Source: Gemmatimonas aurantiaca T-27 (GTDB lineage: Bacteria > Gemmatimonadota > Gemmatimonadetes > Gemmatimonadales > Gemmatimonadaceae). From it: a stretch of 64,000 bases of DNA. Position 1 is the stretch's first letter, and each line of letters opens with the position of its first letter. The position numbers and the translations under genes are program-made. Shown here piece after piece: positions 3,521 to 51,013 of the stretch. The notes beneath the pieces are model-generated. The model did no database searches, was not told the origin of the DNA, and saw only the letters and a program-made list of their open reading frames with translations. The stretch covers positions 3,107,646 through 3,171,645 of the forward strand of contig NC_012489.1 of the NCBI RefSeq assembly GCF_000010305.1. Reading direction: 5' to 3'.

Positions 3521-4668
3521 CGTTCTGGAAGTGTGCCGAGGAACTCGGCGAGATACTTGCCCCAGATGCGCGGCTGCGAATGCGTACCGTGTCCACGCGT
3601 TTCCGGGGTGATGGGCAGCAGGATGAACCGGGTCCCCGGCATCTGCGCCGCGAATTTCTCGGCCATGCCCAGCTCAGGCGGGTTCACCTGATCATCGGCC
3701 GAGTTGATGAACAACGCCGGTGCCTTGATCTCTCCGAGACGGGCCGACGGGTCGTAGTCGCGCGACGCATCGAACTGGTAGAGAAAATCATTGGCATCGG
3801 TGGTACGCATCCGTGCATCGAGGTACGCGCGGATGACCGAGTCGGCCTTCTCGCGTGTGGGCGCCTGTGCCTGCTGCACGAGTGGCGCGCTCGACATCAT
3901 GTACAGCAGCATCTGCGCCGACTTGAGGCCGGGCGGCTGCATCTTGTATTCCCCGCCGAGCCACGCCGGATCGTCCCGGATGGCGTCCATGGCCATTGTG
4001 CGGATCATGCGATTGCGACCGGCGATCTGCGCGGGCACACAGGCGAGCGGGGCCAGCCCGTCCATGAAGGCCGGGTAGGTATATCCCCATACCCAGGCAT
4101 GCATGCAGCCCATGGAGGTGCCCATGATCAGGCGCAGGTGGTTCACCCCGAGGTGTTCCGTCAGCAGCCGATACTGGGCCGTCACCATGTCCGCATAGCC
4201 GTACTTGGGGAACCGGGCGTGCGGGCCGTCGCTGGGTTTGGAGGACCCGCCATGGCCGATGCCATCCGGCAGGATCACGTAGTAGCGGCTGCTGTCGAGC
4301 AACTGGCCAGGGCCGAACAGCTCCCCGGCATAGGTGGGGCTCAGGAATGACCGCCCGCTGCCTCCAGTCCCGTGCAGAATCATGACCGCATTCCGCACGA
4401 TTCCGCGCGTATCCTTTCGGGGGGTGCCCAGGGTCGTGTAGTGAATGCGCAGCTCAGGGAGCGAGCGGCCGTCCACGAACGTGACATTGCGGAGCACGGC
4501 ATCCCCCTGCTTGCCGGCCTGCGCCCACCCGGCGCCGGAACCGGCCGGCGGCTGCGCATTGGCAAGGGTCGGTCCGACCAACAGGAGGGAGAGCGCACAC
4601 CGCACTCCCTTGACGCCCCGGACATTTGTCCAGAACGAGCGAGACAGGAAGCGCGTCAGAATGTTCAT
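3517..4668 (-). CDS. Exported alpha/beta hydrolase, homoserine O-acetyltransferase (MetX)-like fold
   Basis: 383 residues with an N-terminal signal sequence ending near NAQ (residues 36-39). Oxyanion/HG motif ILHGTGGSG (98-106), nucleophile elbow MGTSMGC (Ser185), acid in NSADDQVNP (Asp325/326) and C-terminal His in RGHGTHS (His360 or 363). The order and the DGIGHGGSSKPSD segment resemble MetX-type hydrolases. However, a signal peptide and the absence of other methionine genes argue against homoserine acetylation in the cytoplasm. Better called a MetX-like secreted hydrolase. First gene of a two-gene unit with the DUF983 gene. Confidence 0.82.
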   Translation of the reverse strand: MNILTRFLSRSFWTNVRGVKGVRCALSLLLVGPTLANAQPPAGSGAGWAQAGKQGDAVLRNVTFVDGRSLPELRIHYTTLGTPRKDTRGIVRNAVMILHGTGGSGRSFLSPTYAGELFGPGQLLDSSRYYVILPDGIGHGGSSKPSDGPHARFPKYGYADMVTAQYRLLTEHLGVNHLRLIMGTSMGCMHAWVWGYTYPAFMDGLAPLACVPAQIAGRNRMIRTMAMDAIRDDPAWLGGEYKMQPPGLKSAQMLLYMMSSAPLVQQAQAPTREKADSVIRAYLDARMRTTDANDFLYQFDASRDYDPSARLGEIKAPALFINSADDQVNPPELGMAEKFAAQMPGTRFILLPITPETRGHGTHSQPRIWGKYLAEFLGTLPER

Positions 4669-12615: not shown

Positions 12616-12656
12616 AGAGAACTTCTGCCAGAGAACTTCTGCTAAGAACTTCTGCG
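12616..12656. repeat. Three direct copies of GAACTTCTGC
   Basis: Two 14-bp units and one 13-bp unit (12616-12629, 12630-12643, 12644-12656), each containing AGAACTTCTGC. They fill the gap between two convergent genes. No hairpin is formed; a slippage product is the simplest explanation. Confidence 0.75.
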
Positions 12657-17166: not shown

Positions 17167-20100
17167 ATGAAGCGCTCATGGGGCATTTCCGGACGTGTGG
17201 CCAAGGTGTTCCTTCATTCCAAGCTCACGCCACTGCTCGCCATGGCGTCGCTCGCGATGGGCGTGCTGGGTATCCTCGCCACCCCGCGCGAAGAAGAGCC
17301 GCAGATCTCCGTTCCCATGATCGACGTGATCGTGGCCATGCCGGGAGCGACGCCCATCGAGGCGGAGAACCTGCTGGGACGACCAGTCGAACAGCGCATG
17401 CTGGAGATTTCCGGCGTCGATCACGTCTACACCGTGTCAGGTGATGGTTACGCCATGATCACGGTGCGCTTCAAGGTTGGCGAAGATCAGGAACGCAGTG
17501 TGACCAAGGTGCAAGCCAAACTGGCCAGCGCTTTGGACCGCGCCCCATTGGGTGCGCTCGCTCCCATCGTGAAGTCTCATTCGATCGACGATGTGCCGGT
17601 GCTGGCGCTCACGTTGCACGGCCAAGGCATGGACGCCAACACGCTCCGCCAGATTGGCGTCCACCTCGAAGACGAGATTCGCACAGTCCGGGAGGTGGCC
17701 GCGACCTTTGTCACCGGTGGTGCGCCGCGACAGATCTCGGTCATGCTCGACGCCGCGCGTCTGGCCGCGACGGGTGTGTCCCCCGGCGAAGTGGCGATGA
17801 CCCTGCACAACGCCAACGCGCGTCTCCTCGCGGGGGCCTTCACGACGGCTGACAGCGTCGTGCAGATCGCGGTTGGCGCGCCACTCACCGACGCACAGGA
17901 TGTCGGCAGTGTCGTAGTGGCCACCCGAGCCGGTCGGCCCGTGTACTTGCGCAGTGTCGCCGAAGTGCGTGACAACTTTGGTGACGTCACCTCGTATGTC
18001 TCACATCGTGCCGATGGCGCGCCGGCAGAAGCCGCCGTGACCGTGGCGGTATCCAAGCGGCAGGGAGCCAACGCCACCGAGGTCACACGAGCGGTACTCG
18101 CCCGCGTCGAGCAGGCCAAGGGTCGATTGCTGCCGGAAAATGTGCAGATCGAAGTCACGCGAGACTACGGTGAAACCGCTGGCGAGAAGGCGCAGGAACT
18201 CATCTTCCACCTCCTCATCGCCACGCTGTCCGTCACCACACTGATCGGGGTGTTCCTGGGCTGGCGCGAGGCGCTGGTGGTACTGGTCGCCGTACCGGTC
18301 ACGCTGGCGCTGACCTTGTTCGTGTACTACGCGCTGGGCTACACGCTCAATCGCATCACGCTGTTCGCGCTCATTTTCTCCATCGGCATTCTGGTGGATG
18401 ACGCCATCGTGGTGGTGGAGAACATCTACCGTCACCTCGCTATGGGAGACCGGCCAGCCGACGTGGCCGCCATCGATGCCGTGGATGAAGTGGGTAACCC
18501 CACGATTCTCGCCACGTTCACTGTGATCGCGGCTATCCTGCCCATGGCTTTCGTGAGCGGCATGATGGGACCGTACATGTTGCCCATTCCGGTGGGCGCA
18601 TCGGTGGCCATGCTGGCCTCACTGGCCGTGGCGTTCGTGATCACGCCCTACTTGGCCTATCGATTGCTCCGGGGGCACGTGCGAGCCCGCGGTACAGTGC
18701 ACGACGCCGATCCGGCCACGGTCGCAGACACGAGTCATGGCACGGGCGGATTCTATCAGCGGATCATGTCGTCGCTCATCGCTCACCGTGGCACACGCCT
18801 GGCGTTCTACGGAACGGTCGGCCTACTGCTCCTGGGCAGCGTGGGCCTGGTGGGCCTGCGGGTTGTGCAGGTCAAGATGCTGCCCTTCGACAACAAGAGT
18901 GAGTTCCAGGTGATCCTCGACCTCCCGGAGGGGACGTCACTCGAAACCACCGACCGGGTCGCATCCGACATCGCGGCGTATCTGGGCAAGGTGGACGAAG
19001 TGACAAGCACGCAGGTCTACGCTGGTACATCGGCGCCGTTCACTTTCAACGGATTGGTGCGTCACTACTTCATGCGCCGTGGCGCCAACGTCGCCGACGT
19101 ACAGGTCAATCTGACACCCAAACACGCGCGCGATCGACAGAGCCACGACATTGCCGCAGCGGTACGGCCGGCGGTGGATTCCATTGCGACTCGCTACGGT
19201 GCCTCAGCCAAAGTAGCGGAGATTCCCCCAGGTCCGCCGGTGCTATCCACGCTGGTGGCCGAAGTGTACGCGGCAGACGATGCTACGCGCCTCAAAGCGG
19301 CAACAGCCGTCAAAGCCATCTTCGAGCGCACATCCGGTGTGGTGGACGTGGACTGGACCGTGGAAGCCCCCCAGCACCGGAAGAGCTTCCGCGTCGACCG
19401 TGCGCGGGCCGCCGAAAGCGGTGCGAGTGTGGAGCAGCTCACGCAGACCGTGTATCTGGCACTCTCGGGCAGGACCAGCAGTCTCGTCGCCTTGCCCACC
19501 GCGCGCGACGCGGTACCCATCGTGCCACAATTGCCGGAAGCGCAGCGTACCAGTGTGGAAGCGCTGCTCGCATTGCCGGTGGCCACACTGACCGGTCCTC
19601 AGCCGCTGGGGCGCTTCGTGACGGTCGTGGACGGGATTCGCGAAAGTGCACGCATCCGCAAAGACCTGCGCCCTGCCATCTACGTCACCGGTGACGTGGC
19701 CGGTGAAATCGAAGCTCCGATCTACGCGATTCTCGACATGAATCGACAGATCGACGCCCTGAAGATCGTGGGCGCATCGGTTGGCATCTACAACGCCGTG
19801 GCACCAGCGTCGCTTTCGGAAACAGCCATCAAATGGGACGGCGAATGGCAGGTCACCATCGAGGTGTTCCGCGATCTCGGTCTCGCCTTCACCATCGTGT
19901 TGCTGCTCATCTACGTGCTGGTGGTGGGCTGGTTCCAGAGTTTCACCATTCCGCTGGTGATCATGGCGCCCATTCCGCTCACGCTCATCGGCATTTTGCC
20001 GGGGCACGCTCTGAGTGGGGCGTTCTTCACGGCCACCAGCATGATCGGTATGATTGCCCTGGCCGGCATTATCGTGCGCAACTCCATCCTGCTGGTGGAC

Positions 20101-37648: not shown

Positions 37649-38980
37649 TCAGCGATACAGGCGGTACTTGTCCGCACGCTGATGGAAGCGCGTGAGCTCG
37701 GGGGTCCATGCATTGAAGATCTGCTGCGGGGTGTTGCCCGCGACGAGCATGGTCTTGAGACGCGGCGTGGCGGCGAGACGATCCATCACCGCGTCTTTCC
37801 ATTCGAGCTTGTCGGCGTGCAGCGCGTTCACCGCCCACATGAGGGCCACACCGGCACGATAGGGCTTGAAGGCCGCGCGATCCGTGACATGCAGGCGAAT
37901 GCCCGGCAATGACTGCCCGGAGAACGCGGGCGGGCGACCATGGAACGAGCGCTGGGTGGGCGTGAATGACTCCGCCGTGAAACGCGTCCCTGGCAGATTG
38001 AGTCCGTTGAGCATGGCAACGGCCCGATTGTTGTCGAGCCAGGGCGCACCAATCAGCTCGAACGGATAGTCACTGCCACGCCCTTCGGACAGGTTGATCG
38101 ACTCGAAGAGGCACGTGCCGGCGTACGCCACCAGCGACGAGAACGCGACCAGGTTGGGCGATGGCTTGTGCCACGGCAGGCCGGTGTCGTCGAACCACAT
38201 GTCACGCGTCCATCCCTTCATCGGCACCACATGCACGGTGCCCTTCACGCCCCCGCGCAGCAGGCGCTCACCGTCGTAGAAGCGCGCGAGTTCGCCCGGC
38301 GTCATGCCGTGCAACGCCGGAATGGCCGTGTACGAACCAAAGCGGTAGAACGACGCACTGTCGGCGACAAAACCGTCCGCTCCGCGTCCCCCCAGCGGAT
38401 TGGGGCGATCGAGCACCACCACCGGAATCTTCTTCTCTGCCGCAGCTTCCATCACGAAGCCCAGGATGTTGACGTGCTCGTAAAAGCGCGCGCCCACTTC
38501 CTGAATGTCGTAGATGATGACGTCCACCCCGTCGAGCATCTGCGGCGTCGGCTTGTGCACCTCGCCATAGAGACTGTACTTCGGGACCCCGGTCGCACTA
38601 TCCACCGCATGTTCGGGATCGCGCTGGAGCGAGTAGTCGTTGCTGCGAATGTTGTATTCCATGCCGAACAGCGCCTTCAGACGCACGTTCAGGCGCTTCC
38701 CCGCCCCTGAGTGCAGCGCATCGGCGAGATGGGTGCCATCAGCGAGTCGGCCGCTGTGATTCGACACCAGCGCCACCGATTTCCCGCGGATGAGCTGGCC
38801 GTATTCGGTGAAGAGCCGATCGGCTCCCATGACGAGCGGAGCGCGGGCGGGGGTGCGGGCGGCGGCTGTCCCCTGCGCAGTGACCGGTTGCAGGGCGGGC
38901 GTCGACAGCGCGAGCACGGCCAGCGCCATGCGGGACAGTCGAACGACGGATGCGGATCGGGAGAGAGCGGGACGGTGCAC
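37649..38980 (-). CDS. namZ: DUF1343 protein, NamZ-type exo-beta-N-acetylmuramidase
   Basis: 443 residues from a GTG at 38980 (an ATG at 38929 is possible); exported (ALAVLALSTPALQPVTAQ). DUF1343 signatures: SVALVSNHSGRLADGTHLAD, LKALFGMEYNIR, GVPKYSLYGEVHKPTPQMLDGVDVIIYDIQEVGARFYEHV, VLDRPNPLGG and GLPWHKPSPNL. NamZ releases N-acetylmuramic acid from non-reducing ends of peptidoglycan. No murQ-like genes are visible in the window. Confidence 0.88.
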   Translation of the reverse strand: MHRPALSRSASVVRLSRMALAVLALSTPALQPVTAQGTAAARTPARAPLVMGADRLFTEYGQLIRGKSVALVSNHSGRLADGTHLADALHSGAGKRLNVRLKALFGMEYNIRSNDYSLQRDPEHAVDSATGVPKYSLYGEVHKPTPQMLDGVDVIIYDIQEVGARFYEHVNILGFVMEAAAEKKIPVVVLDRPNPLGGRGADGFVADSASFYRFGSYTAIPALHGMTPGELARFYDGERLLRGGVKGTVHVVPMKGWTRDMWFDDTGLPWHKPSPNLVAFSSLVAYAGTCLFESINLSEGRGSDYPFELIGAPWLDNNRAVAMLNGLNLPGTRFTAESFTPTQRSFHGRPPAFSGQSLPGIRLHVTDRAAFKPYRAGVALMWAVNALHADKLEWKDAVMDRLAATPRLKTMLVAGNTPQQIFNAWTPELTRFHQRADKYRLYR

Positions 38981-39062: not shown

Positions 39063-39227
39063 GGGAGCTGGGGCTACGGGAGCTGGGGCTGCGGGAGCTG
39101 GGGCTGCGGGAGCTGGGGCTACGGGAGCTGGGGCTACGGGAGCTGGGACTACGGGAGCTGGGACTACGGGAGCTGGGACTACGGGAGCTGGGACTACGGG
39201 AGCTGGGACTACGGGAGCTGGGACTAC
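39063..39227 (+). repeat. 15-bp minisatellite, 11 copies, G-quadruplex-prone
   Basis: Eleven head-to-tail 15-bp units, GGGAGCTGGGG/ACTAC. The first five read GGGGCT and the last six GGGACT, with TGC for TAC in units 2 and 3. Every unit has two G-runs of three or more, separated by 4-5 nt, on the + strand. Lies between the namZ-like and phytase genes; the 5-codon period keeps all frames open but no gene is credible. Confidence 0.95.
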
Positions 39228-39261
39228 GGGGAAAGGCGGGAAACGACGGAGACTACGGCTC

Positions 39262-40377
39262 TCAGTTTCCCGAGCAGTCTCCCTGTGCTCCGGTGGCCTG
39301 TGCAATCCTGTCCCATGAGAACGCCGCGATCGCGGCATCGGCGTGTGCGGTGAAGAATGCGCCTCGCGGGAATTTCCCAAAACCACGCTGGGTGAGGGCA
39401 ACACCATCCGTCGTGTTCGTCACCGGGCCAGCGAAACTCGCCACGTGCGCGAAGGTGTTGCGGTCGAACAGGTGGAACGTGTTCACCGTGGCCCCCTGAT
39501 CGGTGGTCACCCAGTAGCCTGCATCGGCTCCACAGCGATACAGCGCAATGCCCTCCGCCTGCTGCGGGAAGTAGCCGCGCCCAAATACCGTGCCGGTGAA
39601 TCGCCCATCGCGCGAATACACCTTGATATGTGAATCGGTCTCCAGCTCCTCGGCCAACAACAGGCGGTCGTGATCCGGATCCGCCAGGATCGATTCCGTC
39701 ACACGAATGGCGCCGGCGGATGTGGTGTCGCCAAAATCACGTACGTGCGTGGCGACCAGACGGCCGTTGCGTAGGGCCACACGATACTGCTTCACACGTG
39801 CGCCCAGGTCGTGCAATGCCGGAACCTGCTCGTCGGCCGTTTCGTAATTGTCGGTGACGTAGACCATCCAGCCACCCGCCGTGTCTGGTAGCGCGGTGAG
39901 GCCATATGGCTTGCGCAGGCGATCCACACCGAACACACCCGCTGGCGTGAAAGAGGGCAACACAAAACCCTGTACACGGTGATTGTCGCGCTCCACCACC
40001 AGCAACAACGAATCCCCCACAACCAACACGCCATTCGGGCGCGCCAACTGGCCCTCACCGGAGCCGGGGCCGCTCACGCGACGCAGCTCCTTGCCGGTAT
40101 TGGCATCGAGTACGATCAGCACATTGGCCGTCTTTGCCGAGGCGATGATCCACGACGCGCTGTCCGCGCCGAAATACACGGCGGGGCCATCCACATTGGC
40201 CGCCGTATCGAGCGCACTGATCCACGTCTCGACCACACGCGCCGTATCCGTGCGCGCTGTGGGAGCGTGCGTGAGTGCCTTGGTGGAGTCGACGGCCGTC
40301 TTGCCGGTGTCGCCCATGCAGGCGACAAGACCGGTCACTCCACCGACCATCGCGATCCTACGTAGAACACTGTTCAC
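39262..40377 (-). CDS. Beta-propeller phytase (3-phytase) lipoprotein
   Basis: 371 residues; lipoprotein signal ends LVAC (Cys20). Propeller phytase pattern: LDTAANVDGPAVYFGADSASW, PYGLTALPDTAGGWMVYVTDN, VKQYRVALRNGRLVATHVRDF, ADPDHDRLLLAEELETDSHIKVYSRDG, AEGIALYRCGADAGYWVTTDQG, and TDGVALTQRGFGKFPRGAFF. These calcium-dependent enzymes cut phosphate from phytate. Start overlaps the TonB receptor stop by 4 bp; BPP genes are commonly paired with TonB receptors. Confidence 0.78.
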   Translation of the reverse strand: MNSVLRRIAMVGGVTGLVACMGDTGKTAVDSTKALTHAPTARTDTARVVETWISALDTAANVDGPAVYFGADSASWIIASAKTANVLIVLDANTGKELRRVSGPGSGEGQLARPNGVLVVGDSLLLVVERDNHRVQGFVLPSFTPAGVFGVDRLRKPYGLTALPDTAGGWMVYVTDNYETADEQVPALHDLGARVKQYRVALRNGRLVATHVRDFGDTTSAGAIRVTESILADPDHDRLLLAEELETDSHIKVYSRDGRFTGTVFGRGYFPQQAEGIALYRCGADAGYWVTTDQGATVNTFHLFDRNTFAHVASFAGPVTNTTDGVALTQRGFGKFPRGAFFTAHADAAIAAFSWDRIAQATGAQGDCSGN

Positions 40378-43100
40378 GGACGGAACCGGAGACCGAGCTG
40401 CAGCGACGGCCGATAGAACTCGCGCTGACGCATGCGATCCGGTGCACCCTGGAACGTGCGGTACGGGGCATTGGTCAGGTTGATCGCTTCGGCGTACACC
40501 TGTGTGCTCGACGTGAAGAAGTAGGACATCGAGAGATCGAGCTGACTGCGGCTGTTGGCAAAAAGGTCGTCACCTTCTTCCTCACCCAGCTCGTCGATGA
40601 AGTCACCCACATGATTGAGACTGACCTGCCCAGAGAAACCGTACTTTTCGTAGCTCACCGCAATGTTGTACGCCCGTGAGGACTGCCCCGCCAGTCGAGT
40701 GACCCGACCGTTCGGCTGGGTGGCCCGGGAGTCGGTGTACGTGAAGTTCGAATACAACCCGAGTCCGCTCAACACACCGGGCAACGAGGTGAAGCGCTGT
40801 TGCCATGCCAGCTCGACTCCGCGAATCTCGCCATCTTGCGCGTTCACCGGTGTCGTGGTTTCGCCACCGAGTTCGTTGTCGAGCGTTTGTGAGAACACCG
40901 GATTGGTGAGCTGCTTGAAAAACACGCCCGCCGAAATCACACCGACACGCTGGTCATAACGTTCGATCATGAGATCGTAGTTCCGCGCCAGCATCGGCTT
41001 GAGCTGCGGATTGCCCGTCTCCACGTCCTCCCCATCCACAATACGATATGGGACCAGGTCGAAAAAGTTCGGGCGGAAAATCGTCTGGGTATACGCGGCT
41101 CGCACATTGGTCTGGTCGGCAATGCGGTAACGCAGGTGCGCCATCGGAAAGAGATTCGTGTAGTTGTTCTTCGCCGACATCGGTGACAGCGTCTCCTCTT
41201 CGGCGTCGAACACATTGCCGTCCGACTCGAGCTGCGTCTGCTCAACACGCACGCCCGGCAGGAACAGCAGGCGAGGCGTGAGATTCAGCTCGGCGGACAC
41301 ATAGCCGGCCAGTACCCGCTCGCGCAGATCGAAGGCTTCGCTCTGGGCTTCCAGGTCGGCTTCTGGCGACGACAGCATGGAGTGAAAGCGCGTCGTGAAA
41401 TCGGACACGTCGGACGCGCTCGTGCGGAACGGCATGGCATAGCGACCGGCCGAGAAGGCAGCGTTGTCGAAACGGCTGCCGATGTCGCGACCCAGCACGA
41501 GATCACCATCTTCGAGTTCCGTGGCGAAGGCATCCAGCACCTGATCCTTATGCCGATCTCGCGCCTTCGCCCCGACACGCAGGCGACCTGTGGTGCTCGT
41601 GCCCAGGCGCAGTGGGAACGACAGGTTGAACGCACCCACCAGGTCCCGGTTGCGTGTGAGCGACGAACCATACTCCATCTCGTCGAACGCGTAGGTGCCA
41701 GCCAGCGCCGCGGCGGAGGGATTGGGCTGCGGACGGTTCACATCGGCACGCGATGGCGAGAACGCCACGTCCTCCTGCAAAAAGCCGAATTCCCTATCGA
41801 ACGGCGTGTCTTCCTGTGATCGCGTGGCTCCGGCGCGATAATCGAGTTGAATGCCACGCGGCAACTGATGCTCCGCGCCGGCCAGCACATTCAACGTACT
41901 GATCTTTTCCAGGCGATTCTTGTGCAGGTACGCCAGTTCGCCGTCTTCGATAAGATGCGCCTGCACGCGTCGCTGTTCCTGGTCCTGCAGTTCGGACCAC
42001 AACCCGTTCACATAGAAGGTCGTGCGCGCATTCGGACGGAAGTCGAGCGAGGCGGTGGACCCGGTGCGCTGTCGCCAGAGTGAATAGTGCCGCACTTCGA
42101 GCTCGTTGAGCGCATCGTCGTCATAGTCTGGCTCCACACCATCCGACCCGAAGTTGCGGCGTCCGTACGAACCCGACAGCAGCCAACCGAAACGCCCGTC
42201 GGCACTGCGATCGCCATAGGTTACGGCGCCTAGCCCCGATCCCTGTTCGCGAATGGCCGCGTAACCGCCAGAGAGCTCTGCCGTCACGGTGCGACCAATT
42301 CCGGGACGCTTCGTGATGAGATTCACCGAACCACCCACCGCATCGGCGTCCATGTCCGGCGTGATAGCTTTCGACACCTCGACAGCGGCCAATACCCCCA
42401 CCGGCACCGCGTCGAGCGCAATCTGCCGCGAGCTCGCTTCCGGTGAACCGATCTGCTCTCCATTCACGGTCACCTGTGTGGTTGCCGCCGATGATCCGCG
42501 CAACTGCACATAGCGCCCTTCACCCTGATCACGCTGCAAGGCCACACCGGGAAGTCGCTGCACCGCTTCGGGAGCCGACGCATCGGGGAAGCGCCCCATC
42601 TGGTCGGCCGCCACCACATTCTTGATGTTGGCGGCATTCTGTTGGCGTGACAGGGCTTCCGCCTGCCCACTCGCGCGCACGGTGACGGCACTGAGCACGA
42701 CACTTTCGAGATCGGCCGTCAGTGTGGTGGTTCCGCCCGTCGTCACACTCACCGTGATCGTTCGTGGTGTCCGCCCGAGATAACTGATGCGCACCCGCAG
42801 TTCGCCAGCAACCACTGGGGCGAGCACAAAGCGCCCTTCGTTGTTGGTGGTCACGGTGAGGGTGGAACCCACCAACGTGACCTGGGCGCCGGGCAACGGG
42901 ACCTTCGATTCCGAGCCACGCACCACGCCGGCCACTCGACCTGTGCCCTGCGCGGAGAGCAGCGTCGGAGCCGCGACCGCCAACAACAGCGCCGCGAGAG
43001 CCAGAAGCGTGAGCGTCTGCGTGAACGCTTGCGCGCAGGCTTCGACAACACGACGAACCACGGCACGGCCAGACCATGCCCATGTGGGACCAACGACCAT
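40374..43100 (-). CDS. TonB-dependent outer-membrane receptor (phytase-linked)
   Basis: 908 residues from the ATG at 43100, which has TGGAG 5 nt upstream; a start at 43124 is less likely. Signal about residues 20-51, regulatory-like domain GRVAGVVRGSESKVPLPGAQVTL, plug with PEAVQRLPGVALQRDQGEGRYVQLRG and VNGEQIGSPEASS, then a barrel ending in ASLQLGLRFRP-type sequence. The QGEGRYV...RG block is typical of the TonB receptors linked to phytases and other polysaccharide/phosphate scavenging. Divergent from the iorA-like gene at 43390. Confidence 0.9.
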   Translation of the reverse strand: MVVGPTWAWSGRAVVRRVVEACAQAFTQTLTLLALAALLLAVAAPTLLSAQGTGRVAGVVRGSESKVPLPGAQVTLVGSTLTVTTNNEGRFVLAPVVAGELRVRISYLGRTPRTITVSVTTGGTTTLTADLESVVLSAVTVRASGQAEALSRQQNAANIKNVVAADQMGRFPDASAPEAVQRLPGVALQRDQGEGRYVQLRGSSAATTQVTVNGEQIGSPEASSRQIALDAVPVGVLAAVEVSKAITPDMDADAVGGSVNLITKRPGIGRTVTAELSGGYAAIREQGSGLGAVTYGDRSADGRFGWLLSGSYGRRNFGSDGVEPDYDDDALNELEVRHYSLWRQRTGSTASLDFRPNARTTFYVNGLWSELQDQEQRRVQAHLIEDGELAYLHKNRLEKISTLNVLAGAEHQLPRGIQLDYRAGATRSQEDTPFDREFGFLQEDVAFSPSRADVNRPQPNPSAAALAGTYAFDEMEYGSSLTRNRDLVGAFNLSFPLRLGTSTTGRLRVGAKARDRHKDQVLDAFATELEDGDLVLGRDIGSRFDNAAFSAGRYAMPFRTSASDVSDFTTRFHSMLSSPEADLEAQSEAFDLRERVLAGYVSAELNLTPRLLFLPGVRVEQTQLESDGNVFDAEEETLSPMSAKNNYTNLFPMAHLRYRIADQTNVRAAYTQTIFRPNFFDLVPYRIVDGEDVETGNPQLKPMLARNYDLMIERYDQRVGVISAGVFFKQLTNPVFSQTLDNELGGETTTPVNAQDGEIRGVELAWQQRFTSLPGVLSGLGLYSNFTYTDSRATQPNGRVTRLAGQSSRAYNIAVSYEKYGFSGQVSLNHVGDFIDELGEEEGDDLFANSRSQLDLSMSYFFTSSTQVYAEAINLTNAPYRTFQGAPDRMRQREFYRPSLQLGLRFRP

Positions 43101-43389
43101 GAGGTCTCCAATACCGGAAGCCAACCAAGAGTCCTGCCAGGCAGGTCAGAACGCTCAAAGGTTGGATCTCATGTTCCCTGACTCTGTGAAGACCGCGTAA
43201 CACCCTCGTCAACGTTCCCGGATCGAGCGGTTCGCCTGCACTCCTGAGCCATTCACCACATTCGTCCGGCAATCCCCCATGTCGCCGCTGCCCGGTTGTC
43301 GGCATGGCATTCATGCTTGAGGAGGCCCCGGATCGTGGAGGACATCGCCTTCGCATCGGGTCGTCAGCCTGTAGCCGGGAGATCGCACG
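43101..43389. promoter_or_regulatory. Divergent intergenic region
   Basis: 289 bp between the TonB receptor and the iorA-like gene, so promoters for both should lie here. I see GGGAGA about 8 nt before the ATG at 43390, and a short palindrome CCTGCC-A-GGCAGG (43133-43145). No clear PhoB box or -35/-10 pair was found. Confidence 0.4.

Positions 43390-49007: not shown

Positions 49008-51013
<2,006 letters not shown>

Follow-up and report, generated by a model that had tools for sequence, protein, structure and literature searches.

Several classes of short repeat are scattered between the genes of bacteria. BOX elements of streptococci (boxA-(boxB)n-boxC) are dispersed, modular and capable of forming stem-loops, and carry a tandem module of variable number within an ordered framework (PMC3049150). 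REP/BIME and RPE sequences are short, dispersed intergenic palindromes, often present as inverted pairs, for which roles as terminators or at mRNA ends have been proposed; REPs are single hairpins of 20-40 bp tagged GTAG or CGTC, the GTAG type being tied to RAYT transposases (PMC3733652). The quadruplex-forming GGGNATC repeats of Xanthomonas and Nostoc are tandem G-rich heptamers with uniform G-runs, distributed genome-wide, mostly intergenic and often between aligned genes, with the G-rich strand antisense upstream of an ORF or sense after a stop codon (PMC4692102). Bidirectional intrinsic terminators between convergent genes consist of an A-run, a GC hairpin and a T-run. The repeats described below resemble each of these in part, and the array from which the analysis started was best explained, with a probability of about 0.7, as the solitary, slippage-expanded arm of a modular intergenic inverted-repeat family of Gemmatimonas that would be terminator-like when complete. 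No description of these repeats was found in the open-access literature.

The window, which is the whole stretch of 64,000 nucleotides of the Gemmatimonas aurantiaca genome that was analysed, carries at 39063..39227 (+ strand) a G-rich array of 11 contiguous 15-bp units, GGGAGCTGGGRCTRC, with its outer end to the left (namZ side) and its inner end to the right (phytase side). Direct reading of the sequence confirmed the array and its 22 GGG(G) runs as listed in an earlier note, as well as the loops of 4 nt (AGCT) and 4-5 nt (CTAC/ACTAC). Direct reading and pattern searches likewise recovered the two blocks from which local expansion had been concluded: five outer units with GGGGCT (slot GGCT, 39063..39137) are followed by six identical inner units with GGGACT (slot GACT, 39138..39227). 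In units 2 and 3 the final AC is replaced by GC. Using Tandem Repeats Finder, the array was scored at 287 (period 15, 11.2 copies, 98% matches), by far the strongest of three tandem arrays in the window. Allowing at most one mismatch, GGGAGCTGGGRCTRC matched 11 times in the window, each time in the array, while 0.05 matches were expected from dinucleotide shuffles. As both blocks are homogeneous, the array therefore appears to have grown by duplication of a few founder units, and it is the longest perfect array of its family. The source genome (G000) is a single contig of 4,636,964 bases and is 99.97% complete; an assembly artefact is unlikely because more arrays of the same family are present elsewhere in it.

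Gene borders were taken from open reading frames and codon composition. The array was located, as noted before, between a minus-strand phytase-like gene (PF02333, 39262..40377), whose stop at 39262 adjoins the inner end, and the start side (38980) of minus-strand namZ, encoding an exo-beta-N-acetylmuramidase with NamZ_N and NamZ_C domains (37649..38980). The distance between the array end and the chosen namZ start is 82 bp. A TonB-dependent receptor gene (40374..43124, minus strand) overlaps the start of the phytase gene and is likely to form one transcript with it. The inner end, GGGGAAAGGCGGGAAACGACGGAGACTACGGCTC (39228..39261, +), can be aligned with its counterpart in the one-armed 204 kb copy. 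The phytase stop codon is spanned by an inverted repeat, GGGAAAC/GTTTCCC (39238-39244/39265-39271), in which a T tract is absent and which was not called by terminator scoring (39238..39271). Between phytase and namZ, scoring gave neither a terminator-like nor a sigma-70-like site; promoters of this phylum may differ. A coding origin of the array was rejected, the through-ORFs on both strands being without a Pfam match and the neighbouring genes ending or starting outside.

Using pattern searches and reading of the loci, 20 arms with 140 in-phase units were counted at 12 loci of the source genome, at 204, 528, 589, 616, 627, 881, 2336, 2605, 3147 (window), 3243, 3414 and 3664 kb; the unit counts depend on the score threshold, and single degenerate units or strongly decayed copies would escape this census. 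A degenerate pattern of two units in tandem matched 103 times (reversed control, 6), and a stricter 37-mer pattern with one mismatch 47 times (control, 0). Eight of the 12 loci have two inverted arms, a G-rich arm on the + strand and one on the - strand being separated by 49-134 bp; the other four, the window copy among them, have a single arm. Arms contain 3 to 11 units. The window-array unit GGGAGCTGGGACTAC was found in tandem again at 880.8 kb.

A typical unit, GGrAGCTGG-NNNN-AC, combines a constant core of 11 bp with a hypervariable 4-base slot, at ∼1.3-1.8 bits per core position and 0.14-0.52 bits per slot position (140 units, 20 arms), and 80 distinct units are present when degenerate end units are included. 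This 11-bp constant part and 4-bp slot exclude a CRISPR array, in which repeats of 24-48 bp alternate with unique spacers of similar length. From the gene side to the centre, unit types follow each other as GGGGGCTGG, GGAAGCTGG and GGGAGCTGG (GGGGG->GGAAG->GGGAG), with 107 concordant and 15 discordant pairs (observed +92; maximum of 5000 permutations, +54). In the congener G021 the unit has drifted (GGAAGCCyGTACnGC, GGAAGCTGGrACTGC, GGGAGCTGGGACTGC and GGGAAC) and the order GGAAGCC->GGAAGCT->GGGAGCT runs in the same sense (44 against 4 pairs; 0/5000 permutations). The family thus has ordered modules together with a tandem module of variable number (3-11 units) and, by analogy of layout, appears to work like BOX, no sequence kinship being claimed. 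Unlike in BOX, the tandem part lies in both inverted arms, is G-rich and has a variable slot in every unit. The boxB module is also much longer than the 15-bp unit. GACT is the innermost slot both of the window array and of two further one-armed copies, at 204 and 880 kb, and the inner ends of the window and 204 kb copies can be aligned; the left-arm-only copies therefore look like one subfamily and not like three separate truncations.

In two-armed copies, CGGGGAAAAACGGGAGCyGGACC tends to sit just inside the last unit, with GGTCCrGCTCCCGTTTTTCCCCG as its mirror. Within the mismatch limit used, the centre ACGGGGAAAAACGGGAGCYGGACC matched 8 times in the source genome, always inside elements, and the control 0 times. 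For whole elements, a single long stem was predicted (-149 to -213 kcal/mol). A hairpin with compensatory slots was ruled out: slot agreement between facing arms was 0.321, compared with 0.342 after permutation, and covariation was not found. As the agreement of opposite slots does not exceed that of permuted ones, the slots are not maintained for pairing. The cores are intact in one-armed copies too, where a partner arm is missing, which counts against the preferred reading.

At 589, 616, 2336 and 3243 kb the centre is flanked by an A4-5 run on one side or both, and clear A/T-runs are present only at some centres. The complete succession of A-run, GC hairpin and T-run is clear in G021 and at 589 kb and one-sided or weak in other copies; in the window copy the A5-hairpin-T5 centre of two-armed copies is absent. 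Between convergent genes of G021, one copy has GGGCAAAAAACG, a perfect 16-bp hairpin and CGCGTTTTGCCCG. At locus L122 of this genome, the centre of one copy reads GGGCAAAAAACG, 16-bp perfect hairpin, GCGTTTTGCCCG, and has the layout of a candidate bidirectional intrinsic terminator. The elements depart from such terminators in the long ordered 15-mer arms that extend the stem, and some are located between codirectional or apparently divergent genes. Counting against a terminator role, a strong terminator distinct from the element precedes the one at 528 kb, and for one copy or more the flanking genes are apparently divergent, an arrangement in which termination would make little sense. Locus L122 (G021:C23) contains two two-armed elements ∼0.9 kb apart (1407-1515 and 2308-2460), each between gene ends, one of which has the perfect terminator hairpin. 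Scanning the family loci with Rfam gave no RNA family on the elements; the sole match was a SAM_alpha riboswitch (RF00521, 43.2 bits, above the gathering score) at L083:7836-7911 (+), ∼2,608.8 kb in the source genome, a family named for Alphaproteobacteria and here present in a Gemmatimonas genome.

Among congeners, the 37-base pattern with one mismatch matched 30 times in G021, 10 in G003, 7 in G044 and 4 in G001, with few or no matches in the others; the control matched once in 30 genomes. In G021, G003 and G001, arms were also found within reading frames, apparently as in-frame linkers (15 bp being 5 codons), as judged by eye without a gene caller. Occurrence within genes is an RPE-like trait (PMC3733652), and since arms lie within coding linkers of congeners, a spreading repeat fits these copies better than a terminator. 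Beyond the genus, an order-level scan gave sporadic tracts in 3 of ∼187 genomes. A scan of 85k genomes of all phyla, own genome excluded, gave 13 scattered loci. Their tracts are short, with few units, and many resemble coding linkers; neither order nor inverted arms were present at any of the 13. One match to the family pattern was obtained in viral contigs. The family is thus nearly restricted to Gemmatimonas, outside which no comparable ordered or two-armed array was found.

At the purE site of the source genome, an element fills the gap between the upstream gene and purE. In 26 congeners, the 260 bp preceding purE showed no element. In six of them the same upstream gene lies ∼1.0-1.15 kb from purE with other coding sequence between, and a gene found at this site in the six is missing from the source genome. 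The purE-site copy was most likely acquired once the congeners had diverged, its loss in all relatives being less likely, and it appears to sit at a gene-loss junction. Shortly upstream of purE, many congeners (L136-L153) share GGGTTGG, ∼17-20 nt and GTAACTT(T), which resembles a Bacteroidota-type promoter (TTG/TAnnTTTG) more than a sigma-70 one; in the source genome the repeat element lies just upstream of this promoter-like motif. A close phytase homologue was not found in 29 congeners (best, 31% identity), for which reason no orthologous comparison of the window locus is possible.

According to the preferred reading, a complete element would run from a gene end through an arm, A-run, hairpin, T-run and inverse arm to the next gene, the arms being built of 15-bp units with core GGrAGCTGG....AC, a free 4-base slot and a fixed outer-to-inner order. 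Complete copies would be bidirectional intrinsic terminators, ending transcription from both sides. Since all cores are alike, each unit could pair with whichever unit it faces in the opposite arm, so that slippage or unequal recombination could add or remove units and leave the stem intact, with the slots free to vary. A slot mismatch at 15-bp intervals would keep the palindrome imperfect. This may be an advantage, as SbcCD removes long-stemmed hairpins (discussed in PMC3733652). In the window copy a single arm would remain, without hairpin and T-run, its eleven units having arisen from two or three founders. This copy most probably has little or no specific function; if it has one, its C-rich sense RNA between phytase and namZ may promote termination or reduce read-through.

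A lone 'G4 minisatellite' in this way becomes part of a repeat system at the level of the genus, in which modules are ordered, cores constant and slots variable, and the function of a single G-rich array should not be read without checking its relatives. Within one strain the loci form a natural series: arms vary from 3 to 11 units, elements have one arm or two, the second run is GGG or GG, and the flanking genes are convergent, tandem or divergent. Comparing these loci could separate termination, G4 formation and slippage.

That the family exists through spread and not through termination is possible rather than probable. The elements would then be non-autonomous and mobile (MITE- or BOX-like), their core being a putative protein-binding site repeated in the arms. 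This is suggested by the dispersed copies with common order and centre, the relatives without an element at purE, the related arms apparently inside coding linkers, and the constant core with free spacer, which has the look of binding-site arrays. The terminal inverted repeats of MITEs are present at 8 of the 12 loci and lacking in the window copy. Against mobility, no convincing target-site duplication was found: at 7 of 8 two-armed loci there was no flanking direct repeat beyond chance, and the eighth gave p=0.03, uncorrected; the outer borders of the elements are fuzzy. Y1/REP transposases (PF01797), the one family searched for an autonomous partner, had no match in the source genome. Lacking both target-site duplication and Y1/REP transposase, the family has no known route of spread. 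The missing PF01797 match also spoke against identity with REP/BIME, which was rejected; single units are not hairpins, and GTAG occurs at unit junctions of the C strand. The family further differs from REPs in its arms of tandem 15-mers and its ∼12 copies. Confidence in mobility overlaps with that in the preferred reading because spread concerns origin and termination concerns role, and the two are not mutually exclusive. It is unlikely that the repeats form a previously undescribed class of spreading elements, in which inverted, binding-site-like 15-bp arms of an order conserved between species surround a terminator hairpin and a dedicated putative protein moves them into gene ends and in-frame linkers.

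Rather unlikely, too, is a role of the window array as a rut-like spacer, in which ∼165 nt of C-rich, G-poor and weakly folded RNA would load Rho and uncouple namZ from the TonB receptor-phytase transcript. C-rich, weakly folded RNA is what Rho prefers. On either strand, no 78-nt or 165-nt stretch of the window is more C-over-G-skewed than two minus-strand ones that begin inside the array, at 39133 and 39118, respectively, and reach beyond its outer end in the direction of namZ; by itself, the array falls in the top 0.08% of minus-strand 78-nt positions for this skew. Each unit has 6 YC steps, folding was predicted at -23 kcal/mol for the C strand and -63 kcal/mol for the G strand, and the one-armed 204 kb copy likewise has the C-rich strand as sense, behind an upstream gene. 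However, the C-rich composition follows from the family unit, so that site-specific selection cannot be shown. Rho-dependent termination between phytase and namZ would be at least as plausible as G4 control: termination or insulation is rated a little above G4 control of namZ, and the absence of any specific function of the window array above either.

Modulation of namZ transcription by G-quadruplexes in the upstream template strand, tuned by copy number, is quite improbable. The + strand of the array did match the canonical G4 pattern in a motif search, as had been noted, with 22 consecutive G-runs and short loops. G4Hunter gave a mean of 1.29 and a best 25-nt value of 1.84 inside the array, and only one G3+N1-7 motif was present in the window outside it (18834-18862). 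The strand rule of the Xanthomonas and Nostoc repeats also applies (PMC4692102). Those repeats, though, have no described inverted arms or ordered unit types, and their runs of at least 3 G with loops of at most 7 nt are found in the window array and not across the family: the second run is GGG in every window-array unit compared with 25 of 110 units at the other 11 loci, where only about half of the arms contain a G3N1-7 motif. The near-invariant element, AGCT, is a loop in the G4 reading, and the slot is variable. Related genomes went against the suggested link to namZ, as its three closest orthologues (63-70% identity) have different upstream sequence without a G-run array; no sigma-70 promoter was recognised in front of namZ, the chosen start of which is 82 bp away. 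G4 capacity is local to the window array and not conserved by the family, and is best explained as a by-product of slots that happen to start with G.

A plain neutral minisatellite grown by slippage and unrelated to other arrays, for which the two homogeneous blocks speak, is very improbable and contradicted as a whole account, since the exact unit GGGAGCTGGGACTAC is again in tandem at 880 kb, core and inner end are common to copies elsewhere and the family pattern exceeds its control (103 against 6). Of the label 'minisatellite', the tandem array with local expansion stands, and being one arm of a dispersed family, the array deserves it for its last expansion step only.

Other short tandem repeats were observed. 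Two weak 14-bp repeats of 2.9 and 2.6 copies are present in the window (12616-12655 and 50163-50201). Arrays of a related 9-mer (CGGGNACNR) were absent from the source genome and sporadic in G013, G022 and G044, mostly at or below control counts; examples are CGGGAACGG (G013:C41:143406-143475) and CGGGTACYA (G044:C7:1020013-1020055), from congeners in which 15-mer copies are few or absent, and this shorter unit may be related to the 15-mer. In G013 (C1, ∼46.7-46.9 kb; L120:1425-1600), a long degenerate array of ∼11 units, GCGAGCTGGAACGGC, directly follows a gene end. Near the one-armed 3664 kb copy, an open frame with (LLA)n repeats (L076; 3,662,620-3,663,033, minus strand) adds a further short tandem repeat, located within a gene or on the strand opposite to one. 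At 2336 kb, a 9-bp repeat of ∼7 copies, GTGAACGGC (L080 ∼3583-3646; 2,336,082-2,336,145), directly adjoins the right arm of the element at its outer end.
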